64,000 nt of DNA, taken from the NCBI RefSeq assembly GCF_947648125.1, contig NZ_CANSMR010000019.1, positions 85,454-149,453 on the forward strand, in the 5' to 3' direction. A program made the translations under genes and the position numbers. A model generated the notes under the pieces. That model was not told where the DNA came from, did not search any database, and worked only from the letters and a program-made list of their open reading frames with translations. Positions 14,617 to 60,326 of the stretch are shown piece after piece. Position 1 is the stretch's first letter. Every line of letters begins with the position of its first letter. The stretch is from an uncultured Bradyrhizobium sp. (GTDB taxonomy: Bacteria; Pseudomonadota; Alphaproteobacteria; Rhizobiales; Xanthobacteraceae).

Positions 14617-14762
14617 GGAACGCATAGCCAATCTTCACGATCGCCGAAAATTGTAGCCGAAGTTGATGTCAATATTTGCTCTCCCGCAAGCCGGGTAACT
14701 CGGGTAGTGTGCGACCCAGGTCATGAAAGTTCGACATCCTGCGTAAACGGCCGCTTTATCGC

Positions 14763-16592: not shown

Positions 16593-16604
16593 GCTCTGCT
16601 CCTC

Positions 16605-16945: not shown

Positions 16946-16999
16946 GATTGGCCCCAGAATCGGAGAGACTACCTGGGCCCAGGCATGATGGGAGCGAAT

Positions 17000-17026
17000 G
17001 GAGGCCGGCCGAATTGGCCGGCCTCC
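17000..17026 (-). terminator. terminator hairpin of the outer-membrane barrel gene
   Basis: Perfect 11-bp stem GGAGGCCGGCC / GGCCGGCCTCC with a 5-base loop, starting 8 bases past the stop of the leftward barrel gene. No T-run follows. Confidence 0.65.
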
Positions 17027-17034
17027 TCTCTTCA

Positions 17035-17781: not shown

Positions 17782-17909
17782 CGTTGTAAGCCTCATCGAA
17801 TGTGGAGAGCACTCAAGCCAAGTGCCATCGACTCCGGCTCAGCTGGTATGCAGAAACTGTCACTGCCAACCATTTCACTGCGGTGTTGCAACAAAACACC
17901 ACTGCAAGC

Positions 17910-18869
17910 TTACGGCGAATTGCCGGACTCCAATGCGCGAAACCGACGATGTGTCTCGGATGGCAACTCGCCGAACAGCGATCTGTAGTGGCCGGCAAAC
18001 CTGCCGAACTCGGTGACGCCGTGGGCCGCCAGAATATCGGCGAGTCTGACGGATGCATCACTCTCGCGACGGATATCATGATAAGCTAGGTTCAACTGCC
18101 GCAGCTTCAGATAATACTTTGGCGAGAAGCCGAGATAACGCTCGAAAGCGCGCAGCAAGGTTCGGTACTCCGCCTTGGTAGCTTTCACGATATCCTTGAT
18201 ATGGACGATGCTTTCCGACTTTGCCCGCACGAATTCGAGCGCCTCCAGAACGATTCGCTCGGACGAGAGGGTGTACTTGTTGGGCAGGAGAGCTTCGCTC
18301 AGGCGATTGTCCCAGACGTAAGCCAACCTATCCATCAAGGCGCGCTCCGTCTCCCGGGCCATCATGGGTTGATCGGCGGCAGCGGAATCGGCGATGGAGC
18401 ACAGGGCCCGCTTCGATGCTTCGACCAATCCCGATGCGATCGGTACTGGCAATCGGGCGAGATGCTTGGTGGTGTTCGGCGATTCCCGACTTGCGGCTAC
18501 GGGAAGGATCTTCCTCGCGACGTCCCCATCACCCGGCAGCGACCATGCTATCCACTCGACGTGACCGAAACGAACAAAGGTAAATTGACAGTCCGGGGGC
18601 ATAATGACCAGGTCCGACACTTGGCATGGCACGCCGTCGAGCAGGACGCGATCGTCGAAGTTGGACGACTGGATGATCACCGTGGTCAAATTCGGATCAG
18701 TGATACCATGGGTGATCCCCGGGCCGCCGTCGGCGCCAAACTGAAGGATCGCTCGATTCAAGGAGAGGCTCTCCACCCCCCATCGGTGGGAGGACGGGGC
18801 GGATTTCAGAAATGTTACCCTCGCGCCCTGAATGGCGTCGGCGTATTTTCCGAAATCGTCCAAATCCAA
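17910..18869 (-). CDS. AraC-family transcriptional regulator
   Basis: 319 residues from a TTG at 18869 with GGCGGG close upstream. The N-terminal ~200 residues are an effector/dimerisation domain of the AraC-binding type 'GxG...LDGVPCQVSDLVIMPPDCQF'. The C-terminal double HTH covers ~215-310 (HIKDIVKATKAEYRTLLRAF, LGFSPKYYLKLRQLNLAYHD, HGVTEFGRFAGHYRSLFGEL). The target is unknown; the neighbouring barrel and HdeA/B genes are candidates by position. A short GGTGTT/AACACC hairpin follows the stop at 17882-17900. Confidence 0.87.
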   Translation of the reverse strand: MDLDDFGKYADAIQGARVTFLKSAPSSHRWGVESLSLNRAILQFGADGGPGITHGITDPNLTTVIIQSSNFDDRVLLDGVPCQVSDLVIMPPDCQFTFVRFGHVEWIAWSLPGDGDVARKILPVAASRESPNTTKHLARLPVPIASGLVEASKRALCSIADSAAADQPMMARETERALMDRLAYVWDNRLSEALLPNKYTLSSERIVLEALEFVRAKSESIVHIKDIVKATKAEYRTLLRAFERYLGFSPKYYLKLRQLNLAYHDIRRESDASVRLADILAAHGVTEFGRFAGHYRSLFGELPSETHRRFRALESGNSP

Positions 18870-44149: not shown

Positions 44150-44555
44150 TAAGGTTCTGTTCGTGTGGGCGTGTCGCGAGGCGGTGCACCTTCCATAATC
44201 AGGTGCAACAGATTTTGCCTGACTGGCGACCTCGCAGCTCCTGCTCCACCGAATGCTCGGATCGGCATCCATTTCACCTTGCCCTGGGGCGACCTCACGA
44301 TCAGCGCCAGGCCAAATGTATCCAATTATTCTGTTTCGGCCTCAGCGCCTCAAAAGGATGTAAGATGGATCGATCGCGAAGAGTCGCGATTATTGTCATA
44401 TAATATGTTGAAATAATTCATTTATAAACGATGGATTGAGCGATGCTTCTTTACGCTGGATATCCCATCACGCAGCACTTTGGATACCAAGGTTGACTTC
44501 TGGATACATTTTGTCCAGTTTCCTCCCAGAATAAAATCAATCTGGGGAGGGGCCG
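44150..44555. promoter_or_regulatory. AT-rich leader of the ABC-transporter operon
   Basis: About 400 bp without a gene. The part 44320-44450 is markedly AT-rich for this genome. TTGACT (44493) and AT-rich blocks could be promoter elements. The last 100 bp contain three GGATA-type sites annotated separately; GGGGAGGGG then precedes the GTG start at 44556. Confidence 0.5.
44458..44508. promoter_or_regulatory. three candidate operator sites for the GntR regulator
   Basis: GGATATCC (44458-44465, a perfect palindrome), TTGGATACCAA (44480-44490, inverted arms TTGG/CCAA) and CTGGATACA (44500-44508). The GGATA cores are 24 and 20 bp apart. FCD-type GntR proteins often bind short TNGTNNNACNA-like palindromes, so the regulator at 51524 is the obvious candidate. 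Inference from sequence only. Confidence 0.45.
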
Positions 44556-45542
44556 GTGACCGGCATTTCGGGCGCGCGCGGGCCGAAATTGACGCAGACG
44601 ACAGCCGTGCTGGCGATGTGCGCGGTCTTGATCGTCGTTTTCTCGATCTTCCTGCGGGGCTTCCTGACGCTCGGCAATCTGTTCGCGCTGGCGCGTAACA
44701 TTTCGATACTCGGCATCCTCGCGCTCGGCATGGCGGTTGTCGTGATCGGGCGTGGACTCGATCTGTCGCAAGTCGCCTCCTTCGCCGCCTCCACCGCGAT
44801 CGCGATCATTCTGATGAATTCGGGTTATGCGACGCCGGTGGCGCTGCTGATCGGCTTCGTGATGGCGATCACCATCGGAATCCTGAACGGGTTCCTCATC
44901 TCGGTGATCGAGATGCCGCCGCTGCTGACGACCCTGGCATCGAGTCTTGCGGTATTGGGGATCGTACGCACCACGGCTGTGCAGCACTATGTCGTCTACC
45001 TTTCGAAGGGGCACGACGAGTTCCTTCGGCTGGGCGGAAACATCTGGGGCGGTGTCCCGATCTCGATCCTGATCTTCGCGGCCACTGCGGTCGTCGTGCA
45101 TCTCTTCCTATCTCGCACCGTCATCGGGCGCTTCGTCTATGCCCATGGCGACAACCCCGATGCCGCGCGCCAGACCGGTCTGCCGACCCGTCCGCTGACC
45201 ATGATCGAATACGCGCTGTGTGCGGCGATCGGTTACGTCGGCGGCGTCGTGATGATCGCGCAGACAGCGCTGATGCATCTCCAGGTCGCGGAATCGACGA
45301 TCATTTTCGATGTCATCATGGTTGTGGTGCTCGGCGGCGTCAGCCTCGTCGGCGGCCGCGGCAATGTGATGAGCGTCATCGCCGGAACGCTGCTGATCGG
45401 TGTGCTGCTGAACGGCATGACCATCATGGACATGGACGTGCAGACCCAGAACATCGTCAAGGGAGTCGTGCTGCTGATCGCGATCCTGCTCGATTCCCGG
45501 CTGCATCCGCGCGACGAGGAGACGTCGAAGCAGGGCGATTGA
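44556..45542 (+). CDS. sugar-type ABC transporter permease (RbsC-like)
   Basis: 328 residues from a GTG with a very strong GGGGAGGGG ribosome site. BPD_transp_2 fold with ~9-10 membrane segments: LFALARNISILGILALGMAV, VIGRGLDLSQVASFAA, GRFVYAHGDNPDAARQTGLP (the cytoplasmic loop that contacts the ATPase) and VVLGGVSLVGGRGNVMSVIA. It pairs with the second permease at 46737 and the ATPase at 49967. First gene of the operon. Confidence 0.9.
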   Translation: MTGISGARGPKLTQTTAVLAMCAVLIVVFSIFLRGFLTLGNLFALARNISILGILALGMAVVVIGRGLDLSQVASFAASTAIAIILMNSGYATPVALLIGFVMAITIGILNGFLISVIEMPPLLTTLASSLAVLGIVRTTAVQHYVVYLSKGHDEFLRLGGNIWGGVPISILIFAATAVVVHLFLSRTVIGRFVYAHGDNPDAARQTGLPTRPLTMIEYALCAAIGYVGGVVMIAQTALMHLQVAESTIIFDVIMVVVLGGVSLVGGRGNVMSVIAGTLLIGVLLNGMTIMDMDVQTQNIVKGVVLLIAILLDSRLHPRDEETSKQGD

Positions 45543-45601
45543 AGCTCTGCATCCATCAACGGGCCGCAACAATCGGCCGACATAGAAGGGGAGGAAGAAA
45601 C

Positions 45602-46624
45602 ATGACGAAAGCACTGCACAGGAAAGTTCTTGCCGGCATCGGGCTGGCGGCGATGGTGGCAACCGCCGCGCTGGTGGCGGCGCCATCGCAGGCGGCCGGT
45701 CCGCGCGACCAGTTGCGCGACAAATTCGACAAGGCGCTCAAAGGCAAGACGGTGGCCTGGTCGCCAGTCTGGATGGGCGTTCTGGAATCCGAATGGACCC
45801 GTGTGATGAAAGACCGTTTCGACGATTACGGCATCAAGCTCGTCACCCGTGACGCCAACATGAAGTCCGACATCCAGCTTCAGACCGTCAGCGACTACAT
45901 CAACGAAAAGCCTGACGTGATCGTGGTCCAGAATCCGAACGTCACGCTGCTCGCCAAGGAGCTGAAGCGTGCGATGGATGCAGGCATCTATGTTGTGCAG
46001 GTCAACATGGCGTCGAATACCCTGACCGACGCCTATGTCGGCGTCGATGCCAAGGATCTCGGCACCAAGATCGCTCGCGAGGTCATCAACCAGTGCGGCG
46101 GCGGCAAGGGCTCGGGGGAGGTCGCGATCCTCGAGGGCGAGGCGACCGCAGCCTATTCGCTCGACATGAAGAACGGCGCCATGGAGGTGTTCAAGACCGA
46201 TCCGTCGATCAAGGTCGTGTCGTCGCAGCCGACAAGCTGGGATGCCAACAAGGCCGGCGATATCACGACCACCGTGTTGCAGCAACATCCGAAGCTGTGC
46301 GGGATCCTCAGCGTCTGGGGACCGCAAACTGCCGGCGCGGCGCAGGCGATCAAGGCGGCCAATATGGGCGACAAGGTGAAGGTGTTCGTCGCCAGCGATG
46401 GACAGCCCGCGGATTGCGATCTGCTGGAGCAGGGCGCATTCTCCGCGAACCTTTCGTATCGCGCCGACGTGCAGGGGCAGACCATCGCCGACGCGGTGAT
46501 CGCGCTCTTGCAGAGCGGCGACAAGCCGGGTTCGAAGAACGTCGCCTATTACACGACCCCCGCCTGGGTGAAGTCGAAGGACGATCGGATGTACTGCTTC
46601 AGCATCCCGAAGGGCGTGAAGTAG
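45602..46624 (+). CDS. periplasmic sugar-type substrate-binding protein
   Basis: 340 residues; GGGGAGGAAG upstream of the ATG. Signal peptide to PSQAAG (no lipobox cysteine). Peripla_BP_4/RbsB-like domain: GKTVAWSPVWMGVLESEWTR, VSDYINEKPDVIVVQNPNVT, DAYVGVDAKDLGTKIAREVI, GILSVWGPQTAGAAQAIKAA. Four cysteines in the mature part (INQCGGG, KLCGIL, ADCDLL, MYCFS) could make disulfides, unusual for RbsB-type proteins. It delivers the unknown substrate to the two permeases. Confidence 0.9.
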   Translation: MTKALHRKVLAGIGLAAMVATAALVAAPSQAAGPRDQLRDKFDKALKGKTVAWSPVWMGVLESEWTRVMKDRFDDYGIKLVTRDANMKSDIQLQTVSDYINEKPDVIVVQNPNVTLLAKELKRAMDAGIYVVQVNMASNTLTDAYVGVDAKDLGTKIAREVINQCGGGKGSGEVAILEGEATAAYSLDMKNGAMEVFKTDPSIKVVSSQPTSWDANKAGDITTTVLQQHPKLCGILSVWGPQTAGAAQAIKAANMGDKVKVFVASDGQPADCDLLEQGAFSANLSYRADVQGQTIADAVIALLQSGDKPGSKNVAYYTTPAWVKSKDDRMYCFSIPKGVK

Positions 46625-46736
46625 ACGTTCCGGCGCCCGCGCCCCTGCGGCGCGGGCAGGCCGGAGTTGAGATCCCCATTCCCTGCGTCGTCCCGCCGTT
46701 CGGCCGTGCCCGTGCCGAACCCGCCGGAGTCTGTTG

Positions 46737-48848
46737 ATGAAAAGCCTGCAACGAGCCTGGCACCGCCATTCGCCCCAACTGTTCCTGGGCGAGCTTCTTG
46801 AGAAGCGGTGGATGGAGCCGATCATTCCATTCACGCTCACGATCGCGGTATTCTTGGCATTCGCGGTGATGATCCCGCGGTACCTGACGGCGAGCAGCCT
46901 TCAGGAGCTGATGCGGAATTTCGCGGAGCAGGGGATGGTCGCCGTCGCGATGGCCTTCTCCGTGCTATCGGGCGGCATCGACCTGTCAGTCGGCGCAGTG
47001 TTCGCAATGTCGAACTTCCTCGCGCTCTATTTGTATCTCATTGTCGGGCTGCCGCTGCCCGTGATGATCCTGCTTGTCGTCCTGTTCGGCGCGGCGATGG
47101 GCGCGATCAACGGCGGGCTGATTGCTTACGGCAGGACCCGGCCATTCCTGACGACCCTGGTCGTCCTCATCATCGTTCGCGCCGCCTATAACAAGGTGAC
47201 GGTGGCGTTCACGAACGAGCTCGCAAGTATCGACAGCGGGTCCAGCACCTGGGATTTCATGGGATCGGGCAGAGTTCTCGGTATTCCCTTCAACATGCTG
47301 GTGTTGATCCTGCTTGCCGTCGGAACGCACTTCTTTCTCACTCGCATCAAGCCCGGCGTCCACATCATGGCGGTCGGGTCGAGCCGCAAGGCGGCCCGGC
47401 ACGCCGGCGTCAACGTCAAGCGCGTGCTGTTCTCGGCGTATGTGATGTCAGGGGCTATCGCGGCACTGGCGGGAATCCTTTACGCAGCGCGGCAAAGCAG
47501 TTCGGGCACCGACACCGGCGTCGGCTGGGAGATCAATGCGCTGGCCGCGGTGGTCCTTGGCGGCATCAGCCTTGCCGGTGGCCGCGGCACCATCGCGCGC
47601 GCCGTCATGGGCGCGGCGATCATTTTCATGCTCACCAGCGGCATGGTGCGGCTGGGCATCTCCGGCAACCTGACGACTGCCATCATCGGCATCATCCTGC
47701 TGCTCGCGGTCGGCTTCAACGTGAAGTGGGTCAAGAACAAGGGCAAGGTGCTGCAGAAGGTCTATGTCACCCCAAGCTGGGTCGATTTCGAGCCGCCGCC
47801 GTCGGTCGAGCGCGGCAGCGGCACGCCGTTCGCGGAGAACGACCGCCTGAAGAACGCGGAGGCGATCGCGCTCAACATGATCGAGGGCCCGGAGGACGTC
47901 ATCCTCGATCGCAAGGACAACCTCTACACCGTCAACCGCAACGGCTCGATCATCCGGTTCCTCGCGCCCGACTATACCGTTCGCGAAGAGTTCGCGCGCA
48001 TCGGCGGCCGGCCGCTCGGGTTGGCATTCGATCGGGATCAGAACCTCCTTGTCTGCATCGCCGGCATGGGCGTGTATGGCGTCAAGCCCGATCGTTCGGT
48101 CTTCAAGGTCACCGACCGCACCACGCGCACGCGCACACGGCTCAAGGACGATTCGCGGCTCTATCTCGCCGACGATCTCGACGTCGCGCCCGACGGCAAG
48201 ATCTATTTCAGCGAAGCCTCGACCCGCTATGAACTGACCGACTGGGCGCTCGACGGCTTCGAAGGCCGCGGCAACGGCCGGCTGATCTGCCACGATCCGA
48301 AAACCGGCATCACCAGGACCGTCCTCAAGAACCTGACGTTTCCCAACGGCATCTGCATTTCGCATGACGGCCAGTCGGTGCTGTGGGCGAGCACCTGGCT
48401 GTGCCAGATCAACCGTTACTGGATCGCCGGCCCGAAGGCGGGCACCAGCGAAATCCTGATCGACAACCTTCCAGGCTATTGCGACAACATCAACCGCGCC
48501 TCTGATGGCAAATACTGGCTCGCCTTCGTCGGCCTGCGCACGCCGGTCTATGACCTTGCCATGCGCAATCCCGTTTTCCGCACCCGCATGGTGAAGCAGA
48601 TCCCGCCGGACGAGTGGCTGTGCCCGGGGATCAATTACGGCTGCGTGGCCAAGTTCGACGACAACGGCGTCGTGACCGAATCGCTCTGGGATCCGGGCGG
48701 GCTTTCACATCCGACCATCACGTCGGTTCGCGAACACAAGGGCTATCTCTATATCGGCGGTCTCGAGAACAACCGCATCGGCCGTATCCGCCTGCAGGAC
48801 GCCGCCCCGACCTGGGAAGCGCACAAATCCTATTGGGGAGGGGCCTGA
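46737..48848 (+). CDS. ABC permease fused to SMP-30/strictosidine-synthase-like propeller
   Basis: 704 residues in one uninterrupted frame, about twice the length of an RbsC-type permease. Residues ~30-345 are the permease (GMVAVAMAFSVLSGGIDLSV, GVHIMAVGSSRKAARHAGVN, VVLGGISLAGGRGTIARAVM). After a ~40-residue linker, residues ~385-690 form a six-bladed propeller: IEGPEDVILDRKDNLYTV with the metal-type Glu, FPNGICISHDGQSVLWAS with Asn, and YCDNINRASDGKYWLAFVGL with Asp. This is the SMP-30/gluconolactonase/strictosidine-synthase-like superfamily. As the permease C-terminus is cytoplasmic, the propeller should sit at the inner mouth of the transporter. GGAG precedes the ATG. The fusion implies processing coupled to import. 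Confidence 0.9.
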   Translation: MKSLQRAWHRHSPQLFLGELLEKRWMEPIIPFTLTIAVFLAFAVMIPRYLTASSLQELMRNFAEQGMVAVAMAFSVLSGGIDLSVGAVFAMSNFLALYLYLIVGLPLPVMILLVVLFGAAMGAINGGLIAYGRTRPFLTTLVVLIIVRAAYNKVTVAFTNELASIDSGSSTWDFMGSGRVLGIPFNMLVLILLAVGTHFFLTRIKPGVHIMAVGSSRKAARHAGVNVKRVLFSAYVMSGAIAALAGILYAARQSSSGTDTGVGWEINALAAVVLGGISLAGGRGTIARAVMGAAIIFMLTSGMVRLGISGNLTTAIIGIILLLAVGFNVKWVKNKGKVLQKVYVTPSWVDFEPPPSVERGSGTPFAENDRLKNAEAIALNMIEGPEDVILDRKDNLYTVNRNGSIIRFLAPDYTVREEFARIGGRPLGLAFDRDQNLLVCIAGMGVYGVKPDRSVFKVTDRTTRTRTRLKDDSRLYLADDLDVAPDGKIYFSEASTRYELTDWALDGFEGRGNGRLICHDPKTGITRTVLKNLTFPNGICISHDGQSVLWASTWLCQINRYWIAGPKAGTSEILIDNLPGYCDNINRASDGKYWLAFVGLRTPVYDLAMRNPVFRTRMVKQIPPDEWLCPGINYGCVAKFDDNGVVTESLWDPGGLSHPTITSVREHKGYLYIGGLENNRIGRIRLQDAAPTWEAHKSYWGGA

Positions 48849-48851
48849 GCC

Positions 48852-49970
48852 ATGTCTCTGCTTGGCGATATTGTCGATCGCGTGTTGTTTCCGAACCGGG
48901 AGCTTCATGTCATTCCGGTGCTCGATGGCGCGTTCTCCCCGAACCAGCGGCTCGATGGGGCCCGCCAGCTCGGCGCGGAGATCGAACGGCCGGATGACAT
49001 CGCGCTCGGGCAGGACGGTGCGCTCTACGTCTCGACCGGCAACAACATCCTGCGTTGTACCGGGGACGATTTCAACACGCGCGCCGTGTTCGCGACTCTC
49101 GACGGGCCGGTCGGCGGACTTGCCAGCGCGCCGGATGGCAGACTGCTCGCTTGCGTCTCCGGTGTTGGGTTGGTGGCGCTTTCGCCAGTCGGCAAGATCG
49201 TCGCGAAGCTCGAAAGCGTCGGCGGTGAGAGGGTCGCCTGCCCATTGTCGGTGACGGCCGCCCCCGACGGGGCGATCTACCTGACCGACGGTTCGCGTAA
49301 CAACCGGCCCGACCTCTGGCTCACCGACCTGATGCAGAACCGGGCCCCGTCGGGTCGACTCATCGTTTGTGATGCCTCGCTCGGTGGCGCGAGCGTGCGC
49401 GCGGACAAGCTGGCGTGGCCGCTTGGCGTGGTCGTTTCCAGTGACGGCAACGAGGTGTGGGTCGCCGAGTCCTGGGCCCATTGCCTGACCGCTTTTTCAC
49501 GCGCGGGCGGCGACAAGCGCGTGATCGTCAAGAACTATACCGGCTATCCGGCGCGTCTTGGCCGAGGGGCGGATGGAGAGGTCTGGATGGCCTTCCTGGC
49601 GCTTCGCACGCAGTTGACCGAATTCGTCCTGCGCGAACGGGCGTTCTGCGAAGAAATGATGCGGACGGTACCGTCAGAGCTTTGGATCGGGCCGGCGCTG
49701 GATGGCCGCCTCAATCCGCGCGAGCCGACCCAGATCGGCCGCATCAAGAAGCTCGGCATTCAGAAGCCGTGGGCGCCGCCGCGCTCGTATGGCCTCGTTG
49801 CGCGGCTGGACGCCAAGGGTATGGCGACGGAGACGTTGCACAGCCGTGTCGATGGTCGGGTCCATGGAATAACCGCCGTCCGCCCGATTGGCTCCCGCGT
49901 GCTGGCGGTATCCAAAGGGCGCGATTGCCTGGTTGAACTGCCGCGTGGTCGCGGCGCGCAGGAAGGATGA
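48852..49970 (+). CDS. SMP-30/strictosidine-synthase-like propeller protein
   Basis: 372 residues, no signal peptide, starting 3 bp after the fusion gene. Propeller pattern with IERPDDIALGQDGALYVSTG, GLASAPDGRLLACVSGVGLV, AWPLGVVVSSDGNEVWVAES and YPARLGRGADGEVWMAFLAL. It is homologous to the fused propeller but the metal-site Glu position reads ERPDD, and the Asn/Asp pair is PLG and RLGRGADG, so it may have lost catalytic residues and act as a partner or bind substrate. ATGA overlap with the ATPase gene. Confidence 0.85.
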   Translation: MSLLGDIVDRVLFPNRELHVIPVLDGAFSPNQRLDGARQLGAEIERPDDIALGQDGALYVSTGNNILRCTGDDFNTRAVFATLDGPVGGLASAPDGRLLACVSGVGLVALSPVGKIVAKLESVGGERVACPLSVTAAPDGAIYLTDGSRNNRPDLWLTDLMQNRAPSGRLIVCDASLGGASVRADKLAWPLGVVVSSDGNEVWVAESWAHCLTAFSRAGGDKRVIVKNYTGYPARLGRGADGEVWMAFLALRTQLTEFVLRERAFCEEMMRTVPSELWIGPALDGRLNPREPTQIGRIKKLGIQKPWAPPRSYGLVARLDAKGMATETLHSRVDGRVHGITAVRPIGSRVLAVSKGRDCLVELPRGRGAQEG

Positions 49971-51508
49971 GCGCCATGCCGGCGGAACAACAGGCAGGAA
50001 CCCCGCTGCTTCAGGTCGTCAATGGCAGCAAGGTCTATGGAGGTCTGCATGCGATCGATGGCGTCAATTTCGATCTGCGGCCGGGCGAAATCCACGCACT
50101 GCTGGGCGAGAACGGTGCGGGAAAGTCGACGCTGTGCAAGGCGATCGCAGGCGCAATCGTCCTGACCTCCGGGGACTATATGATCCGCGGACGCAAGGTC
50201 TCGTTCGCCTCACCAAAGGAGGCGCTCGAGGGCGGAGTCGCGATGGTCTACCAGGAGTCCAGTCTGGTGCCGTCGATGACGGTGGCGCAGAATCTCGAAC
50301 TCGGCATGGAGAAGTGGGTTACTGTCTACAGCAAGATCAACATTGCGGCGACGCAGTCTTTGCAATCGATGAACTTCAATGTCGATCCGCTGGTGCTGGT
50401 CGAGAATCTCGGAACTGCCAAGCGGCAGATGGTCGAGATCGTCCGTGCTGTGCGCCACAATGCACAGGTCTTCATCTTCGATGAACCGACTGCGTCACTT
50501 ACGCCCGAAGAAACGCAACATCTGTTCCATCTTCTCAACACCCTGAAAGAGAAGGGCGCCGGGATCATCTTCATCTCGCATGCGCTGGAAGAGGCACTCA
50601 ATATCGCCGATCGCATCACCGTACTCCGGGACGGCAAGCTCGTTGCCACGGTGCCTGCAAAGGACGTCACCCGCGACTCGCTCGTGCGGATGATGGTTGG
50701 CCGCGAGGAAACGGCAGCTCAGTACGCAACCCACGGCGCTGATCCGGATGCGCCGAAGCCCAGCGCGCCGCGCGGCCAGAAGGTGCTTTCGGTCGAGAAC
50801 GTGACGATGGGCAGCATCGTCAAGAATATGTCGTTCTCGGTCTTCAACGGGGAAGTCGTCGGCATCTTTGGACTGGTCGGGGCGGGACGGTCGGAGATCG
50901 CCCAGATCGTCAGCGGTGCACGGAAGCGCAACTTCCTGCGCGGCGGGATGATCTATCTGCGGGACAAGCCGGTCCGCTACCGGGTGCCGCGGCAGGCGGT
51001 GCGCGACGGAATCGCCTATATTACCGAGGATCGGAAGGTCGACGGCTTCTTCGAGACGATGACGGTGGATCAGAATATCTATCTTGGCTATCTGTCGTCG
51101 CCGCGCATCAGGCGATTTCTCTACTCCACGCGCGAGATGAAGCGGATTGCCGATCAATGGATCTCGGCGCTCTCGATCTCGGCGTTGAAGCGAACGCTGA
51201 AGATTGTGGAATATTCCGGCGGCAATCAGCAGAAAGTCGTGGTGGGAAAGTCTCTGGCGCAGGAACCGACAGTGGTCATCTTCGACGAGCCGACGCGAGG
51301 GGTCGACGTCAGCGCCATTCCGCAGATCCACCAGGCCATCCGCAAGCTGGCGGGCGAGGACAAGGCAGTCGTCGTGATCTCTTCCTATTTGCCGGAGATC
51401 CTGGCGATCTCGGATCGGATTCTGGTCGCGCGTGGCGGGCGTATCGTCGAGGAAATGGCACGGGCCGATGCGACCGAAGACAAGATCATGTACGCGGCCA
51501 TTCACTGA
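49967..51508 (+). CDS. sugar-type ABC transporter ATP-binding protein (two domains)
   Basis: 513 residues, start overlapping the previous stop. First ABC domain: Walker A GENGAGKST (~residues 48-56), a degenerate signature NLGTAKRQMVEI, Walker B FIFDEPTAS. Second domain: modified Walker A GLVGAGRSE, signature YSGGNQQKV and Walker B VIFDEPTRGVDV. This asymmetric tandem layout is normal for RbsA/MglA-type ATPases. It powers the two permeases. Confidence 0.92.
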   Translation: MSAMPAEQQAGTPLLQVVNGSKVYGGLHAIDGVNFDLRPGEIHALLGENGAGKSTLCKAIAGAIVLTSGDYMIRGRKVSFASPKEALEGGVAMVYQESSLVPSMTVAQNLELGMEKWVTVYSKINIAATQSLQSMNFNVDPLVLVENLGTAKRQMVEIVRAVRHNAQVFIFDEPTASLTPEETQHLFHLLNTLKEKGAGIIFISHALEEALNIADRITVLRDGKLVATVPAKDVTRDSLVRMMVGREETAAQYATHGADPDAPKPSAPRGQKVLSVENVTMGSIVKNMSFSVFNGEVVGIFGLVGAGRSEIAQIVSGARKRNFLRGGMIYLRDKPVRYRVPRQAVRDGIAYITEDRKVDGFFETMTVDQNIYLGYLSSPRIRRFLYSTREMKRIADQWISALSISALKRTLKIVEYSGGNQQKVVVGKSLAQEPTVVIFDEPTRGVDVSAIPQIHQAIRKLAGEDKAVVVISSYLPEILAISDRILVARGGRIVEEMARADATEDKIMYAAIH

Positions 51509-51523
51509 CAAGGAGGGCCTTTC

Positions 51524-52315
51524 ATGAGTGCCTATCAGCGGCCTCCCTATTGGAACGACGCGGCGCGCGACGCCAATGAAGATGATCCGGATGGCGGTCG
51601 GCTGATGAGCGAGCGGATCGCAAGCGAGATCCGCAGCGCGGTGCTGAGCGGCGAGATGCGGCCGGGTACGCGGATCCGGCAGGAACTTCTCGCGGCGCAT
51701 TTCGGAGCGAGCCGTATTCCCGTGCGCGAGGCGCTGAAGCAGCTCGAGAACGAGGGGCTGGTCGTGATGGCGCCGAACCGTGGCGCCTGGATTGCTGACG
51801 TCGATTCGGAAGAATCGATCGAGATCTACAAGATCCGCGAAGCGGTCGAACCGCTTGCCATCGGTGAAAGCATTCCGAACCTGACCGACGAGGACATTGA
51901 GGCGCTTGACCGGATTGTGCGCGAACTTGAGCAGGTAACCACGCTCGAGGAATACATCCAGCTTGATCGGGAGTTTCATCTGCGAACCTATTCACGCGCG
52001 CGGATGCCGCAACTGCTGGCGATGGTCGAGCGCTTCTGGAACAGCACGCAGCATTTCCGCCGGCAGTTCGTCAGCGAAACATATGCCAAGGATGGCTTTC
52101 CTTTCTCCGATCCCCAGCACGTCCTGATCATGGATGCGATCCGGGCGCGCGACGTCGACGCCGCACAGGTGTTGGTGCGCCTTCACATCCGGCGCACGCG
52201 CGTTGTCATTCAGGCGAAAGAGAGTGGGGCGGCCCAGCCGCCCCTTGCGAACCGCGGCGCGATACCGCACGCCCGCCTCGGCTCGGTCTATCGAGGAAAG
52301 AAGTCCAATGACTAG
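51524..52315 (+). CDS. GntR-family regulator, FCD type
   Basis: 263 residues; AAGGAGGG upstream of the ATG. Winged HTH at ~28-95 (IASEIRSAVLSGEMRPGTRI, SRIPVREALKQLENEGLVVM, PNRGAWIADV) and an all-helical FCD ligand domain to ~235 with metal/ligand residues typical of the family (LDREFHLRTYSRARMP, PQHVLIMDAIRARDVDAAQV). The last ~30 residues are an unstructured tail. It likely represses or activates the operon in response to the imported compound or a CoA derivative. Confidence 0.88.
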   Translation: MSAYQRPPYWNDAARDANEDDPDGGRLMSERIASEIRSAVLSGEMRPGTRIRQELLAAHFGASRIPVREALKQLENEGLVVMAPNRGAWIADVDSEESIEIYKIREAVEPLAIGESIPNLTDEDIEALDRIVRELEQVTTLEEYIQLDREFHLRTYSRARMPQLLAMVERFWNSTQHFRRQFVSETYAKDGFPFSDPQHVLIMDAIRARDVDAAQVLVRLHIRRTRVVIQAKESGAAQPPLANRGAIPHARLGSVYRGKKSND

Positions 52316-52432
52316 TTTCCGGAACAGCGGCTTTGTCCGCGCCAGAATGATGATGGCGGGCGGCCATCAGGGCCGCAAGGCTGGGTGTGGCGGCCGGCAT
52401 CGTCGCGACCGCGGCGGCAACGGGCAACGAGA

Positions 52433-54112
52433 ATGACTGCCGATTCCGATTCCGCGTCGCGTGTTCGCGCCTATGAGGAAGCCGCAGGTCTGCTGCGGGC
52501 GCATCTCGCGGAAACGCCTGTCGCTCCTCCCGATTGCAGAAGGCTGACGGCGCTCGATCTGTTTCGTGCCGCGCCGGGCGAGGCGCCGGCGGTGTTCTAT
52601 TTCGATGCGACGCAGACCTATGGCGATATTGACCGGTATAGCGACCGGCTCGCCGGCGTGTTCGCGAGCAGAGGGGTTGGGCGCGGCGACCGGGTTGCCG
52701 TCATTCTCCAGAATGTGCCGCAATTCGTCATCGTCAGTGTGGCGGCCTGGAAAGTCGGGGCCATCGTCGTCAGCCTCAACCCGATGTACCGGACGCCGGA
52801 GCTTCGCAAGCTGTTCAAGGATTGCGAACCCAAGGCGGTGATCTGCCACGATGATCAATGGGACAACGTTGTCCCGGCGGCGGCTTCGGTCGATCCCGAA
52901 CTGGTGCTCTGGACCGCCGCTCGTGAATTCCAGATGCGAAACGATGTCCGCGTGCTGCCGGAGCCGGGTGCGGCGCCGCAGGCGCACGCGCTGGCCACGA
53001 TCTTCACCGGAGACGCACCGGCGCCGCCGGCGCCGGTTCTGGCCTCCGATGACATCGGTCTGCTGCTCTACACGTCCGGAACCACGGGCGTTCCCAAGGG
53101 CGCAATGCTGACGCATCGCAATCTGGTGGCAACGGCGCTGATCTGCCGCGATCATTTCGAGCTGAACGGCATGTCGCGGATTTTCGGTGTCGCGCCGCTG
53201 TTCCACATCACCGGCTTCGAGATTCAGATGGTCGCAGCTTTCGCCGCGCATGCGGCGATGGTGCTGACCTATCGCTTCCAGCCGCAGGTCGCGCTCGATG
53301 CCTTTCTTGAATGGCGGCCGACATTCATCGTCGGCGCCATCACCGCGTTCATCGCGCTCATGAACCAGGCCGACGCGACCAGCCGCCATTTCGAGAGCTT
53401 TGTACATCTCTATTCTGGCGGCGCGCCGATTGCTCCGTCGGTCATCGATGCGTTCGCGAAACGGTTTGGGCGGGCGATCCGCAGTTCCTACGGAATGACT
53501 GAACTGACCTCTGCAAGTCACCTTGCACCCAACCAAGGTCCGATTCCCGTCGATCCCGCATCCGGCGCGCTGTCCATCGGCAAGCCGACGCCCGCCGTCG
53601 ATGCGATCGTCGTTGACGACGAGCGTCGCCCGCTCGGGCCCGGCGAGCATGGCGAGGTGGTTGTGCGCGGTTCGGGCGTGATGGCGGGCTACTGGAGAAA
53701 GCCCGCGGAAACCGACGAGGTGCTGACCAATGGTTGGCTGCACAGCGGCGACGTCGGCTTCTTTGACGAGAACGGCTGGTTCTATCTGGTGGACCGCAAG
53801 AAGGACATGATCTCCGCCTCCGGCTTCAAGGTCTGGCCGCGCGAGGTGGAAGACGTGATCTACGGCTTTCCGGGTGTGCGCGAGGCAGCCGTCGTCGGCG
53901 CCGCCGATCCGTATCGGGGCGAGACGGTGGTGGCGTTCGTATCCGCCCGGCCGGGCGCCGCCATCGATGTCGCCGCGCTCTCACGCTTTTGCCGCGAGCG
54001 ATTGGCGGCGTACAAATGCCCCGTCGACATTCGCATTCTGGACGATCTGCCTAAGACAGAGTCCGGGAAGATTACCCGAAGCACGCTCAGGGACGGCCTA
54101 CGCGGCGAGTAA
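52433..54112 (+). CDS. AMP-forming acyl-CoA ligase
   Basis: 559 residues from the ATG at 52433. ANL superfamily: P-loop [20 protein letters not shown] (~211-230), [16 protein letters not shown] (A5), [20 protein letters not shown] (hinge region), [20 protein letters not shown] and the catalytic lysine in [13 protein letters not shown] near the C-terminus. It activates a carboxylic acid with ATP and CoA. The substrate is unknown; the closest general type is long-chain/medium-chain fatty acyl or aryl-acid ligases. Confidence 0.92.
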
Positions 54113-54123
54113 GGAGAGCTCAG

Positions 54124-55428
54124 GTGGATATCACGCAAAGCGAACGCAGCCGGGAACTGGCCGAGCGTATCCAGCGCTTCATGATGGAGCACATCTATCC
54201 GAATGAGCGCCGATACTATCAGGAGGCGGAGCGGCTCGGGCCTTGGGCCGTGCATCCGGTTGTCGAGGAACTGAAGCCGCTCGCACAACAGGCCGGCCTG
54301 TGGAACCTGTTTCTGCCTGTTCACGAGGACGGGCTGACGAATCTCGAATATGCGCCGCTGTGCGAGATCATGGGACGTTCCCATCTTGCTCCCGAGGTCT
54401 TCAATTGCAGTGCGCCGGACACCGGCAACATGGAGACGATCCTGCGCTACGGTACGAAAGCGCAGAAGGAGCGTTGGTTGAAGCCGTTGCTCGCAGGCGA
54501 GATTCGTTCGTCCTTTGCGATGACCGAGCCCGACGTTGCCTCATCCGATGCGACCAATGTCGCCAGCCTGATCGTGCGTGACGGCGACGATTATGTGATT
54601 AACGGTCGCAAGTGGTACACGACCGGCGCGACCGATCCGCGGTGCCAGATCATCATCTTCATGGGGCAGACCGACCCGGCGCACCCGGACCGTCACAAGC
54701 GCCAATCGATGATCCTTGTGCCGAAAGATGCGCCGGGCGTGCACGTCGTCCGCTCGCTGCCGGTGCTCGGATTCTACGGCGTGCCGGATCGCGCATCCGA
54801 GGTGATGTTCACCGATGTACGCGTGCCGGCCGCCAACATGTTGCTTGGCGAGGGGCGTGGATTCGAGATCGCACAAGGACGGCTCGGACCTGGACGCATT
54901 CACCATTGCATGCGGTTGATCGGCCTCTCCGAGCGGGTGCTTGAGCGTATGTGCCGGCGAGCGCTCAAACGCGTCGCTTTCGGCAAGCCTCTCGCCGAGC
55001 AAACGGTGACGCTCGAGCGGCTCGCCGAAGCGCGCATGAAGATCGAGCAGGCGCGGCTGCTGACTCTCAGGGCGGCCTATATGATGGATACGGTTGGTAA
55101 CAAGGCCGCGCGACAGGAAATCGCGATGATCAAAGTCGTCGCGCCAAACATGGCGCAGACGATTGTTGACTGGGCAATACAGGTTTTCGGTGGAGGTGGA
55201 ACCAACAACGACCATTTCCTTTCTGCAGCGCTCGCTACGACCCGCTTGCTGCGACTGGCCGATGGCCCCGACGAGGTCCACCGCAACCAGATAGGCAAGC
55301 TCGAGTTGCACCGTTGGCTCAATTCCGATCCGGCGCGGACCGGCGGCGGGGCCGATCCGATGTCCCCGGAAGAATCTGAATCATGGTCCGAAGGGGGCCT
55401 GTGGCCACGTCCAAAAAGTCTACCCTAG
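54124..55428 (+). CDS. acyl-CoA dehydrogenase, ACAD10/11-like
   Basis: 434 residues from a GTG with AAGGAG upstream, 11 bp after the ligase. FAD acyl-CoA dehydrogenase: [80 protein letters not shown] and [20 protein letters not shown]. The GRIHHCMR and DHFL patterns point to the ACAD10/11 branch, some members of which act in 4-hydroxy-acid breakdown together with a kinase (known for mammalian ACAD10/11 and bacterial levulinate catabolism); no kinase gene is seen here. Last gene of the operon. Confidence 0.9.
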
Positions 55429-56068
55429 ATGGGTCCGGAAGGTGCGGGGCTTACCCACTACGTGTCGAAACTGCCCGGCCCGCCTCGGAAGTTTCATCTA
55501 CGGACGACGGTGAAAATGTCAGACCCCGCTGCATCCCCGGCAGAGCCGGAGGCATCCCTTGTTGGGCTGGGGGCTAATGAGGATGCATGCAAGATTTGCG
55601 ACAGAACAACTTAAAGGCCTACTTGATCTTTGGCCTGCGCTTGCGATCGATTCGTCGGAATCCGATCGATCGGACCGCAACATCGATTTTCAGGTCAACC
55701 GGCTGCGGGCGCCCGCAGCGCGATCGAATATCTCTACTTCACGTCGGCGCGTCATCTCGTCTCGGAACACGCACGCGCCAACGTCATGCGGGGCATGATT
55801 GCGCACGTGACTAGGCTGCACGGCGAGCAGGCGTTTCCCGCCTTCGTTCGTGCACGGACGGGGTTGGTCGCGGCACCTGACCGCGTCCGTGACCTGCGTC
55901 GACCTGATGCAGAGAAGTCACATCCCGGCATTTGTGTGGCTTTCAAATATTGAGCAAACAATTGGCTGCTAGGAAACCACGACCGGCTTGATTTGGCCGG
56001 CCAGCACGCAAGGTGGCATCCGGCATGTCTCGTTTGGCCTGGGTCCCCGTGAAAAGCGGGTGATATCC
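55429..56068. other. 640-bp intergenic region
   Basis: No gene is supported. A plus-strand patch around 55700-55950 (AIEYLYFTSARHLVSEHARA, NVMRGMIAHVTRLHGEQAFP) has some coding character but lacks a start and a known family. The right end contains the promoter of the autotransporter gene. Confidence 0.4.
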
Positions 56069-58702
56069 ATGGCGCGTCCGGCACATCCCGTTGCAATCCG
56101 TCCGATCCGTGATCGCGCCGACCCAGTGTCGGCGATCGCTCTGACCGCAAAATGGTCTGGTAACGGATGGCTGTCGCGTCATCGCCAATCATCGCGGGCA
56201 GGCGCCGCGATGATCTCGGCCACCGCCGTCTGCCTGTCGATTGCGTCCGCCGCCAGCGCGCGAGCCGAGACCGTGGAATGGATCGGAACGGGAAACTGGT
56301 TCACCGCCGCCAACTGGAAAACGATCCCCGACGGCGATCCGATCCTGCCGGACATCAATGACAACGTTTTTATCTATCGAACCGGACCGGTGATCGACAA
56401 GCCCGGCGCCTTCAGCGACAACCTCGTTGTCGCCGGACCGAATGGATCGTTCGCGATTACGGCCGGCGGGATCCTCGTGACTTCGACCAGCGCTAGTCTG
56501 GGAGTCGGTATCAACACGTCTGGTACAGCAACGGTTACCGGCGATGGCGCGACATGGGATAGTATCAAAGCTCTCAGTCTCGGCAGCGGCGGTGGCGTTG
56601 GGCATCTGGTCGTGTCTAACGGTGGCAAGGTGAATGCCAACGACGTCGTTCTGGGCGCAGGCGCGGCGGCGGCGGACAGCACCATCACCGTCAGCGGGCG
56701 ATCTTCAGAGCTGCATGCCTATGAATCCCTCGTCATCGGGGCCGGCGCCGGCACGCGTGGCAAAGTCGTTGTCAGCGACGGCGGGACTGTCAGCAGCGGC
56801 AATTTCTTTACGCTCGATTCGACCATCGGCGGTTCGAACGTCTTCATCGGAGGCAGCACGACGAATGCGGCAGATGCCACCGCTCCGGGCTTCATCAAGG
56901 TGAACCAGATTGAATTTGGCGGCTCCGGCAACAGCATCAACTTCAACCACACCGACACGACCCGGACCTATGTGTTCGCGCCAATCCTGTCAGGCAATGG
57001 CATCCTGAACTTCATCAACGGTGCGACGGTGCTGACGGCCGACAGCAGTAACTTTGTCGGACCGACCAACGTCCGCGAGAAAGGCACGCTGATCGTCAAG
57101 GGGTCGCTGGCCGGCTCGGACGTCGCCGTGTGGGGCGTTCTGGGCGGCAACGGCAATGTGAAAAGCGCGACCATCAATGGTGGCGGCAAGATCGAGCCCG
57201 GCAATTCGATCGGCACGCTGCATATCAAGAACAATTTTGCGATGGGAGCCGGGTCGACGTATCGCGTCGAGCTCAGCGGCACGGCCAGTGACCTGATCGT
57301 CGTGGGCGGCACCGCGAACATCCAGAGTTCGCTGTTCGAGGTTGCGCACGACACCGATACCTCGTCAGCGCCGGTATTGCCCGGCAAGACCTACACGATC
57401 CTCACCACGCAGGGCGGCCTGACGGTCGCATCTCCGTCGGTGGCGATCGCGGATTTCCCGTTCGTTGCGTTTACGCTGAGCACCGACGCCTTCAACGGCT
57501 ATCTGACGACCTCGCGCAGCTCGGAACGGTTCGCCGATCTGGCCTCGACGCCCAACCAGAAGGCCGTGGCCAACGCGCTGGACACGGCCGCGGCCACCAA
57601 TCCGGCATGGCAGCAGGTGGTGGGCGCAACCGAAGCCCAGGCGCGCGCCGCCTTCATCAGTCTCAGCAACGCCTCGATCCATGCCAACGCGGCCGGCGTC
57701 CTGTCCGAGCAGTCGCAATATCTGCGCGATGCCGTGACCGGCCGGTTGCGGCGGGATTTTGACTACGGCACGCCGTTGGCGCCGGCGGGCAGCGCGCTAT
57801 CCTATGCAGCGGAGGCGCCGCGCAACGCTTATGCCGCAGCGGGACTACCGTTCTATGAAGCCCCGCCGCTGGCTGCTGCGCCGACGCCGGCGCAGGTCTA
57901 TGCAGTGTGGGCGCAGGCGCTGGGCAGCCAGGGTTCGCTCAAGGGCGACGGCAACGCGGCGCAGACCGATCACTCGCTCGGCGGCGTGATCTCCGGCATT
58001 GATGTCACCTTCGACGGCAGGTGGCGCGTCGGCCTGGCGGGCGGGTACAGCCAGTCCAGTTTCAGCTCCACCAGCATCGCCGCATCCGGCTCGAGCGAGA
58101 GTTACCATGTCGCGCTTTATGGCGGCGGTCAGGTCGGCGCGTGGGGCCTGCGCGGCGGCGCCAGCTTCTCGTGGAACGACATCGTCACCACGCGACAGAT
58201 TGCCGTGGTCAATGTCGTGGAAACCCAACGCGGCGTCGATGCCCTGAAGACGACGCAGGTGTTTGGTGAGGTCGGCCACACCTATGGCTTCAAGGCCGGC
58301 GCGCTGGAGCCGTTCGCCAATATTGCCTATGTGCGTGTCGATGGCGGCGTCAACGAAACCGGCATGGCGGCAATGACCGGGTCGGCGACGCTCGATACCA
58401 CCTACACGACGCTGGGTCTGCGTGGCGCGGCGGCGTTGACCAGCGCGCTGACGGCACGGGGCACACTCGGATGGCGACATGCGTTGGGCGACATCACGCC
58501 GGAGGCCGCTCTGGCCTTCCAGCCCGGTGGGGCGGCGTTCACCCTCGCTGGCGCCCCGATTGCGCGCGACGCTCTCGTTGCCGAAGCCGGCCTCGACCTC
58601 GCTGTTGCCGCCAACGCCTCGCTCGGCGTTTCCTGGAGCGGCCAGTTCGCCGACCAAAGCCGCAGCAATGCCGTCAAGGGCAATTTCAGCTGGAGATTCT
58701 GA
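56069..58702 (+). CDS. classical autotransporter with passenger and beta-barrel
   Basis: 877 residues from the ATG at 56069 (GGGTGA upstream); a TTG at 55988 is an alternative. The signal region is extended (membrane segment near AAMISATAVCLSIASAASARA). The passenger (~100-500) is made of Gly/Asn/Thr-rich beta-helix repeats (GVGHLVVSNGGKVNANDVVL, GAGTRGKVVVSDGGTVSSGN, LSGNGILNFINGATVLTADS). The C-terminal ~290 residues are the autotransporter barrel (VYAVWAQALGSQGSLKGDGN, VTFDGRWRVGLAGGYSQSSF, LGLRGAAALTSALTARGTLG), ending in FSWRF with a terminal aromatic residue. It delivers the passenger to the cell surface; no protease or lipase motif is seen. Confidence 0.92.
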   Translation: MARPAHPVAIRPIRDRADPVSAIALTAKWSGNGWLSRHRQSSRAGAAMISATAVCLSIASAASARAETVEWIGTGNWFTAANWKTIPDGDPILPDINDNVFIYRTGPVIDKPGAFSDNLVVAGPNGSFAITAGGILVTSTSASLGVGINTSGTATVTGDGATWDSIKALSLGSGGGVGHLVVSNGGKVNANDVVLGAGAAAADSTITVSGRSSELHAYESLVIGAGAGTRGKVVVSDGGTVSSGNFFTLDSTIGGSNVFIGGSTTNAADATAPGFIKVNQIEFGGSGNSINFNHTDTTRTYVFAPILSGNGILNFINGATVLTADSSNFVGPTNVREKGTLIVKGSLAGSDVAVWGVLGGNGNVKSATINGGGKIEPGNSIGTLHIKNNFAMGAGSTYRVELSGTASDLIVVGGTANIQSSLFEVAHDTDTSSAPVLPGKTYTILTTQGGLTVASPSVAIADFPFVAFTLSTDAFNGYLTTSRSSERFADLASTPNQKAVANALDTAAATNPAWQQVVGATEAQARAAFISLSNASIHANAAGVLSEQSQYLRDAVTGRLRRDFDYGTPLAPAGSALSYAAEAPRNAYAAAGLPFYEAPPLAAAPTPAQVYAVWAQALGSQGSLKGDGNAAQTDHSLGGVISGIDVTFDGRWRVGLAGGYSQSSFSSTSIAASGSSESYHVALYGGGQVGAWGLRGGASFSWNDIVTTRQIAVVNVVETQRGVDALKTTQVFGEVGHTYGFKAGALEPFANIAYVRVDGGVNETGMAAMTGSATLDTTYTTLGLRGAAALTSALTARGTLGWRHALGDITPEAALAFQPGGAAFTLAGAPIARDALVAEAGLDLAVAANASLGVSWSGQFADQSRSNAVKGNFSWRF

Positions 58703-58730: not shown

Positions 58731-60326
58731 TCAACGTCGCAGGAACGAGCCGAGTCCGTTAGCGTCGAGATATTCGATCGTCACTTCACGCGCCGGCTCC
58801 TTGCCGGACCGTTTGAAGGTGACCGACGACAGCGAGCCGTCGGTCTGGTTCTCGCTGGAAGGGCTAACCGAAAACACATCACCATCCCAGTGCGTCAGCA
58901 TGTATGGCGTGCCCGACGGGCCAATCTTCAGTTCCAGATGGCCACTCACCTCGACGATCTCGACATTTCCGAAATAAGCGTTGGCATAAACGCCGGCGTA
59001 GGACGAAACCTTTGCCGCCGGCGCTGGATTGGCGGGCGGTGACTTGCCGACGAGATCGCCCGTCGGCGCCATGAGTCCGGCCATGATGGGAACATAGGCG
59101 GCAAACCAATCCCGCGTTACCGTGCCGAACTGGACAAGATCCGTGAAGTACGCACCGAGTGCCTCCGCCGAACCGCTCGGCGCCGCGTTGGTCAGCACAA
59201 CGATCCCGATCCCGGCTGATGGAATCATCGCGTAATGGGTCCCGGCGCCCAACGCGAAGGCGCCGGAATGACTGATCATCGTCCGGCCAGCCGGTGTGAT
59301 TCCGACGCCGAATCCATATCCGTAGAAGCCTGGCCTGGCGTCGACCGCGGAGGAATGGGTCGAAATGATTTCGGCCGTCACGGCCGGAAGCAGCGCTTCC
59401 GCTGGAATGATCTGCCGGCCTTCGAATGTACCGTTCTGCAGCACCAACGCCATCCATCGGGCGAGATCGTTTGCCGATGAACTGACGCCGCCCGCCGGCG
59501 ACTCCGCGTCGGGCAAACGTTGATACTTCGGCTGGAAGCCGTCGCCGACCTTCACATGACCCAAGGCGCGGTTCGGTCGCTTTTCGAAATCGGCGAAGCG
59601 CGAACTGGTCGCGGTCATGCCGAGTGGCTTGTAAAGGACGGCTTCGGAAAGACTTTCCCAGTCCTGACCCGATGCGGCCGCCACGGACTCCGCCGCTGCC
59701 GTCAGGCCGAAATTTGTATAGGCGTAAACGTTACGGAAGCTGTGAAGCCGCAGCAGGCCCAGGCGCTCCAGCACGGTTCGTCTGTCATAGCCGAGATCTT
59801 CCAGATCATCGCCGGCGTGATCCGGCAGACCCGAGCGATGACTGAACATGTCGGCAATGGTGACATGCTGCGTGATCCACGGGTCGGTCAACTTGAGCCA
59901 GGGCAAGTGCGCGACGACAGGAGTGTCCCACTTGACGATGCCCGCGCCGACCTGATGGGCCACGACGCTGGCTGCGAGGGATTTCGAAAGCGAAGCGATC
60001 TGAAACACGGTGTCTGCGTCGATCGGCTGGCTCTCCCCGATTTTCCGGACGCCAAAACCCTTCGCGTAGACCGTCTTGCCATCCCGCACTACCGCGATCG
60101 CCATGCCCGGTATGCCGCTCCTCTTCATGACGTCGCTGGCGATCGCGTCGAGGCTGGCAATGGCCTTGTCGATCTGGCCATCTGGAATCGGAACGCCGGC
60201 AGTCTGGGGCGGTGATGTATCGGCAAGGCCCGGCATCGGCGTGTTGGCCCAGAGAAGACAGACCAGCCCGGTGGCAAATAGCTTCTTGGTCGGGCGAAGT
60301 GCCGCAAACGACTTCAGCAAAGGCAT
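58731..60326 (-). CDS. exported serine hydrolase of beta-lactamase/PBP-like fold
   Basis: 531 residues. Signal peptide to about PGLADT. Class-C beta-lactamase-like domain: SxxK motif SLSK with Ser112 and Lys115, YxN motif YTN (203-205) and an HSG motif (SHSGAF) in place of KTG. A C-terminal extension of ~120 residues (DUF3471-like, YAGVYANAYFGNVEIVEVSG) follows. The family includes esterases, D-aminopeptidases and flp-type proteins; beta-lactam hydrolysis is unlikely. It is convergent with the autotransporter, with only 28 bp and a small CTGAC/GTCAG hairpin between. Confidence 0.88.
   Translation of the reverse strand: MPLLKSFAALRPTKKLFATGLVCLLWANTPMPGLADTSPPQTAGVPIPDGQIDKAIASLDAIASDVMKRSGIPGMAIAVVRDGKTVYAKGFGVRKIGESQPIDADTVFQIASLSKSLAASVVAHQVGAGIVKWDTPVVAHLPWLKLTDPWITQHVTIADMFSHRSGLPDHAGDDLEDLGYDRRTVLERLGLLRLHSFRNVYAYTNFGLTAAAESVAAASGQDWESLSEAVLYKPLGMTATSSRFADFEKRPNRALGHVKVGDGFQPKYQRLPDAESPAGGVSSSANDLARWMALVLQNGTFEGRQIIPAEALLPAVTAEIISTHSSAVDARPGFYGYGFGVGITPAGRTMISHSGAFALGAGTHYAMIPSAGIGIVVLTNAAPSGSAEALGAYFTDLVQFGTVTRDWFAAYVPIMAGLMAPTGDLVGKSPPANPAPAAKVSSYAGVYANAYFGNVEIVEVSGHLELKIGPSGTPYMLTHWDGDVFSVSPSSENQTDGSLSSVTFKRSGKEPAREVTIEYLDANGLGSFLRR

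Follow-up and report, generated by a model that had tools for sequence, protein, structure and literature searches.

A permease-propeller fusion in a conserved importer cassette of Bradyrhizobium and its candidate role in import-coupled hydrolysis

What might a sugar-type ATP-binding cassette (ABC) importer take up when one of its permeases ends in a beta-propeller and it stands beside an acyl-CoA ligase and an acyl-CoA dehydrogenase? The question is posed by a cluster of eight genes in a 64,000-nucleotide stretch of DNA from an uncultured Bradyrhizobium sp. (contig NZ_CANSMR010000019.1, positions 85,454 to 149,453; "the window" below is this whole stretch). A first-pass annotation, made from the letters alone, had read the cluster as one uptake-and-activation system in which a lactone is imported, opened by a propeller, activated and oxidised. 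Comparison of 77 systems with the fused permease (the window plus 76 non-duplicate loci) revealed that the conserved unit is a cassette of five genes and not of eight: the permease, binding protein, fusion, second propeller and ATPase occur together in 75 of the 77, some at contig edges, and the two incomplete cassettes (L026 and L031) are both cut by contig ends. The ligase and dehydrogenase make up one among several clade-specific neighbourhoods of this cassette. The 76 loci came from named genomes, the window's own genome, an even sample of the phylum, the genus and 13 of 15 plasmid records (H11 and H14 left out), after exclusion of a contig without a propeller (L035) and of duplicate loci (L039, L059, L060, L062, L063, L065 and L067).

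The cassette and its distribution

Eight co-directional open reading frames (ORFs), all on the + strand, fill 44556-55428 in the ORF listing, the first beginning at 44556 and not at 44458 as given earlier. In gene order the gaps are +59, +109, +3, -4, +15, +69 and +11 bp, with a single overlap (the start of the binding protein being ATG 45602). The description of eight genes running in one direction with short gaps or overlaps thus stands, and Pfam confirms the parts:

44556..45542, + strand: ABC importer permease 1, CUT2 type (BPD_transp_2, PF02653, 3e-32; AraH and RbsC models far under their cut-offs)
45602..46624, + strand: periplasmic substrate-binding protein (Peripla_BP_4, PF13407, 6e-46; Sec signal peptide, by eye)
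46737..48848, + strand: permease 2 fused in frame to a strictosidine-synthase-like propeller (BPD_transp_2, PF02653, then SSL_N, Str_synth and SGL, PF20067, PF03088 and PF08450, in one frame)
47892..48488, + strand: span of the codons of the predicted metal site of the fused propeller (E35 at 47892, D128 at 48171, N186 at 48345, D232 at 48483, N233 at 48486; residues numbered from 47790)
48852..49970, + strand: second propeller, SSL/NHL type (SSL_N, Str_synth, NHL; no signal peptide, by eye)
49967..51508, + strand: tandem-domain ABC ATPase, RbsA/AraG type (ABC_tran, PF00005, in two stretches; AraG model at 456 bits against a cut-off of 689)
51524..52315, + strand: GntR/FCD regulator (PF00392 and PF07729)
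52385..54112, + strand: AMP-forming acyl-CoA ligase (AMP-binding, PF00501, and PF13193)
54124..55428, + strand: ACAD10/11-type acyl-CoA dehydrogenase (matches to ACAD11 chains; signature R253, H261, R264, D380)

Judged by eye, the probable start of the fusion is ATG 46737 instead of the listed TTG 46734, and that of the ligase is ATG 52433 instead of the listed GTG 52385. Downstream of the cluster, an autotransporter-like protein (55988-58702, +) and a beta-lactamase-like serine hydrolase (58731-60326, -) were recognised by eye only.

The importer set is complete over the Pfam cut-offs (Peripla_BP_4 binding protein, two BPD_transp_2 permeases, tandem ABC ATPase), and by its parts the transporter classes as a CUT2 importer. 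Among the NCBIfam models listed, the transporter parts match sugar equivalog models, all below the curated cut-off, and the ligase reaches the cut-off of none of the 25 models listed for it. The solved chains closest to the binding protein are allose-binding proteins (E about 1e-20). The loss of canonical sugar-contact residues relative to the allose-binding protein was rejected as a distinguishing feature, because the genome's own conventional CUT2 binding proteins vary at these positions too; one conserved arginine, found in four of six conventional binding proteins but absent from all 13 family rows listed, is given little weight. The genome (8.57 Mb) has a large transporter repertoire, with 97 BPD_transp_2 permease-family matches.

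The fusion of permease and propeller, which the first-pass annotation had recognised, is borne out by the relatives. The permease part adjoins the propeller in all 76 of the fusion-bearing relatives, and most of the open frames exceed 700 aa, so the fusion is not a chance frame. Database records name the protein 'SMP-30/gluconolactonase/LRE family protein', 'RbsC' or 'ABC transporter permease', and its double nature is therefore easily missed. Of the 398 genomes that sample the phylum, 11 match at 52% identity or above in an open frame longer than 700 aa; ten further genomes match at 37-43% identity, one in a frame of 620 aa and the remaining nine in frames of 358-386 aa. Within the genus, 108 of 265 genomes carry at least one close propeller match (E <= 1e-120), and the window's own type occurs in 13 of the 265, ten at 97-100% (window counted) and three at 81-82%. 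The closest named relatives of the fusion, at 97-98%, are in B. pachyrhizi, B. semiaridum, B. jicamae and B. tropiciagri. Cassettes extend over the Alpha-, Beta- and Gammaproteobacteria, with Paraburkholderia, a Burkholderiales metagenome-assembled genome and Pseudacidovorax among the Beta- and Pantoea among the Gammaproteobacteria. The window's own genome holds three fused copies, the second cassette (L036, contig C6) being 61% and the third (L037, contig C7) 59% alike. On plasmid pShin-09 of Shinella sp. HZN7 (L125), the second propeller and the ATPase lie at the start of the circular record.

An enzyme-like propeller and its partner

The fused propeller passes the family cut-offs of PF03088, PF20067 and PF08450. 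Its closest solved sequence is rice TGW6 (8kg3; 9e-23 in a single-sequence and 5e-43 in a profile search), followed by strictosidine synthases, and its profile aligns DFPase over most of its length at about 4e-11. By domain and site it is assigned to the strictosidine-synthase-like (SSL)/DFPase superfamily. E21 and N120 of DFPase, which we take to be calcium ligands, align with E35 and D128 of the fused propeller (N120 by hand). The TGW6 site residues given in the available part of PMC10958001 (Glu59, Asn167, Asn226 and Asn272) align with E35, D128, N186 and N233, by a hand count in which the numbering of the chain and that of the paper differ by 28. Across 64 fused propellers with identities down to 52% (the window plus 63, the 13 plasmid loci being left out), E35, D36, D129, N186, D232, N233 and H307 do not vary; position 128 is Asp in 59 and Asn in five. 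A DFPase-type metal site is thus predicted to be present in the fused propeller. By eye, a Lys-rich stretch (NVKWVKNKGK) follows the last hydrophobic permease helix and, by the positive-inside rule, suggests that the propeller lies on the cytoplasmic side of the membrane. Four loci (L055-L058) encode separate propellers, 39-42% alike, which retain the metal site for the most part (with Gly in place of N233 in two of the four); their hydrophobic N-terminal stretches, seen by eye, suggest membrane anchoring.

The second propeller gene is present in all 76 relatives. Its structure model has a predicted local distance difference test (pLDDT) score of 76, and its closest folds are strictosidine synthase and TGW6. 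In 21 aligned rows the equivalent of N186 is replaced in 20 and that of D232 in all 21, and N233 is Arg throughout; the Glu position stays acidic (Asp in 15, Glu in six), and the protein carries invariant residues of its own. From the alignment, the second propeller has lost most of the metal ligands, and the fused propeller looks like an enzyme where the second does not. Its role is probably to support or regulate the fused propeller as a partner subunit.

These same data bear on an alternative in which neither propeller is catalytic: both would bind ligands or gate the importer, as a sensor at its cytoplasmic mouth, and the ligase and dehydrogenase would work directly on an imported acid. 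The retention of the second propeller in every relative despite the loss of most of its metal ligands favours this view, as do the TGW6 crystals without bound Ca2+ described in the available text of PMC10958001. Seven residues of the fused propeller that stay invariant in 64 of 64 sequences, down to 52% identity, exceed what a scaffold would seem to need, and we consider this alternative distinctly unlikely.

Neighbours that change with the clade

In a quick-search tree of 81 propellers, the window and 26 relatives form one clade (clade A), with a Shimodaira-Hasegawa-like approximate likelihood-ratio test (SH-aLRT) value of 99. Exclusion of loci cut by contig ends as untestable (L022, L023, L026, L029 and L031) leaves 21 relatives, of which 17 have an ACAD10/11-type match, 18 a ligase and 15 both; L030 is the only one with neither, so that 20 have at least one. 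The dehydrogenase was counted within 9 kb, and the 17 include L020, where it lies ~2.4 kb beyond the ligase and is 75% identical, and L069, where the match is partial. Ten of the clade A relatives are close ones, at 97-98%, and are therefore not independent. Outside clade A, by similarity to the window proteins, the dehydrogenase is found in only one of 50 systems and a ligase in 10 of 50, which marks the two as clade-specific partners and led to the rejection of the eight genes as one conserved unit. The first-pass annotation had called for a neighbourhood survey of eight-gene conservation and had held that absence of the ligase and dehydrogenase beside the transporter in most relatives would refute its reading; within clade A such absence is the exception, given the 20 of 21, whereas outside it absence is the rule.

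The clade A neighbourhood has two arrangements. In one, the order GntR-ligase-dehydrogenase lies downstream of the cassette, and in the other the dehydrogenase is downstream and a different, divergently oriented ligase is upstream. The upstream ligases are 31-35% identical to the window ligase and 61-66% among themselves, two distinct ligase lineages thus standing beside one type of dehydrogenase. One locus (L027) has a 3-hydroxyacyl-CoA dehydrogenase, the ligase and another type of acyl-CoA dehydrogenase.

The window dehydrogenase is closest to ACAD11 and to 4hr3, a putative acyl-CoA dehydrogenase that is presumably a mycobacterial protein. ACAD11 chains match it at 3e-133 to 2e-132 and the next acyl-CoA dehydrogenase outside that type only at 5e-42, so the earlier ACAD10/11 assignment holds. 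Its R253, H261, R264 and D380 have spacing identical to R626, H634, R637 and D753 of mouse ACAD11, which the available portion of PMC12440821 ties to 4-phosphoacyl-CoA, and this R/H/R/D motif is common to 16 of the 17 dehydrogenase-bearing relatives, the seventeenth being the partial L069. In Sulfitobacter alexandrii, far from the window clade on the tree, an APH kinase, an AMP ligase, an ACAD10/11 gene and a DUF7064/7065 gene precede the cassette. The ligase there is 29% and the dehydrogenase 56% identical to those of the window, and the kinase matches ACAD11 residues 62-323, ahead of the acyl-CoA dehydrogenase part, at 5.6e-16.

These associations bear on a second alternative, in which the cassette is an ordinary importer of sugars that includes a lactonase, as sugar-acid pathways do, and the ligase and dehydrogenase form an unrelated operon next to it. 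Its parts are CUT2 throughout, a 69-bp gap separates the GntR gene from the ligase ORF, and most other clades carry the cassette without ligase or dehydrogenase. Against it, the ligase, the dehydrogenase or both accompany the transporter in 20 of the 21 relatives of clade A that could be scored, where they take two arrangements, and they do so once more in Sulfitobacter. As a control, seven regions of the window's own genome were examined, two of which had no CUT2 ATPase match; the remaining five conventional CUT2 loci gave no ligase or dehydrogenase match at >35% coverage. On this evidence the second alternative is very improbable.

Other clades have other neighbours. In clade B, salicylyl-CoA 5-hydroxylase occurs in five of 12 systems (by model in L036, by tblastn in the others). 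The second cassette of the window's own genome, L036, is followed by a bifunctional salicylyl-CoA 5-hydroxylase/oxidoreductase (over its cut-off), a short-chain dehydrogenase/reductase (SDR), an enoyl-CoA hydratase and an FAD monooxygenase; the hydroxylase and hydratase recur in L073, L074 and L076, and the hydroxylase also in L078. Another clade B locus, L040, has a cyclohexanecarboxylate-CoA ligase near the cassette (about 13900-18400; 997 bits against a cut-off of 792), accompanied by an SDR, an enoyl-CoA hydratase and an acyl-CoA dehydrogenase, with a reverse-strand ORF between these genes and the cassette. Clade C has an acyl-CoA ligase in eight of 15 systems, and a carboxymuconolactone-decarboxylase-family gene is present, within the stretch retrieved around the cassette, in all nine systems of a further clade (L047, L049, L052, L053, L054, L117, L118, L123 and L124).

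The neighbours in clade B bring in the main rival, in which the cassette imports carboxylic acids as sugar or glycosyl esters and the propeller cleaves the ester, after which central metabolism would take the sugar and the CoA ligase the acid. Such a route would explain a sugar-type importer beside a CoA ligase, and it agrees with the nearness of the binding protein to allose binders, with CoA-dependent cyclic-acid catabolism adjoining other clades (salicylyl-CoA 5-hydroxylase, cyclohexanecarboxylate-CoA ligase) and with TGW6 as the solved sequence nearest to the fused propeller. TGW6 is reported, in the part of PMC10958001 at hand, to hydrolyse the glucose ester of indole-3-acetic acid (IAA-glucose), but it is a distant relative of the propeller. 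Among the genes of the window cluster Pfam identifies neither a glycosidase nor a sugar kinase, and ACAD10/11 chemistry indicates a 4-hydroxy acid and not an aromatic one, for which reasons the import of sugar esters is judged unlikely.

A proposed mechanism and its place among known systems

The reading preferred here, held at a little short of even confidence, is that the importer cleaves a lactone or ester at its cytoplasmic mouth and passes the product into a CoA pathway of the 4-hydroxy-acid type, with the kinase supplied in trans. The CUT2-type importer would capture a small lactone, or an ester of a hydroxy or carboxylic acid, in the periplasm and hand it to a metal-dependent lactonase or esterase propeller on the cytoplasmic end of the permease, where hydrolysis on entry would trap the product as it is imported. 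The released acid, most likely of the 4-hydroxy type, would be turned into a CoA thioester by the ligase, a kinase encoded elsewhere would phosphorylate it, and from the 4-phosphoacyl-CoA the ACAD10/11-type enzyme would make an enoyl-CoA that enters beta-oxidation. The second propeller would act beside the first as its probable structural or regulatory partner, and the GntR protein probably controls the operon. The sequence of import, opening, activation and oxidation proposed in the first-pass annotation fits the clade A association of ligase and dehydrogenase with the transporter, the predicted metal site, the dehydrogenase signature and the Sulfitobacter kinase, with the amendment that only the fused propeller looks catalytic. 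A lactone, as it had suggested, is a plausible substrate, but an acyl ester or sugar ester fits equally; a gamma-lactone or an ester of a 4-hydroxy acid is plausibly the best-fitting class.

Several observations weigh against this mechanism. Modelling of the full-length fusion gave a poor structure (pLDDT 45), so that the metal site stands as a sequence-based prediction, and the calcium-free TGW6 crystals and the sugar-binding kinship of the binding protein also count on this side. The kinase partner, whose absence from the locus had already been remarked on, was not found near the window clade in a motif scan of L015-L090, which gave one candidate (L049) outside the clade; tblastn with two kinase queries over the 76 relatives matched in Sulfitobacter only, although a diverged kinase could escape such a search. 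The dehydrogenase is rare outside clade A, and the whole tree needs at least five gains or losses for it and seven for the ligase. Finally, the ACAD10/11 signature is also present in three further paralogues of the window's own genome (one flagged with an in-frame TAG). An APH kinase lies about 270 bp from one of these and about 2.7 kb from another, and an APH search found none on the contig of the third. Supply of the kinase in trans is possible.

A broader and more tentative proposal, which we hold to be doubtful, is that the cassettes are a family of import-coupled hydrolases, each pairing a metal-dependent lactonase or esterase, borne by one permease at the cytoplasmic exit, with a pseudo-lactonase that gates or orients it, so that the compound would be cut and trapped during entry, and each clade being tied to a different CoA-dependent or acid catabolic pathway. 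Should the fused propeller be active, import and hydrolysis would be physically coupled within one membrane protein, and the conserved clade-specific neighbours supply concrete candidate classes of substrate. Among the matches listed from open-licence papers, no description was found of a permease-propeller fusion or of coupling between import and hydrolysis in ABC importers. In the portions available, PMC554113 tabulates SMP-30 as over-represented in plant-associated proteobacteria and PMC6710368 tabulates a gene.

Compared with the CUT2 sugar importers RbsABC, AraFGH and AlsABC, the cassette has the same Peripla_BP_4 binding protein, two BPD_transp_2 permeases and tandem-domain ATPase, and differs in the C-terminal propeller on one permease, the second propeller gene in between and the failure of every listed sugar model to reach its cut-off. 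With the SSL, TGW6, DFPase and paraoxonase propellers it shares the Str_synth, SSL_N and SGL domains, the fused copy having the E, D/N, N, D-N metal-site pattern; the permease fusion and the paired second propeller without most of the site set it apart. A lactonase-type propeller is likewise a natural fusion partner in Deinococcus, where, in the accessible part of PMC12362111, it is joined to a Cu/Zn superoxide dismutase and not, as here, to a transporter. The lva (levulinate) operon includes a ligase. Set against that operon and the ACAD10/ACAD11 pathway, as far as the available sections of PMC12440821 describe them, the window cluster has the same CoA ligase and full-signature dehydrogenase, and the Sulfitobacter version also has the kinase; no kinase was found in the window cluster, which therefore falls short of a complete ACAD10/11 or lva system. 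What the window clade has in addition is a dedicated importer with propellers, to which it would extend 4-hydroxy-acid catabolism.

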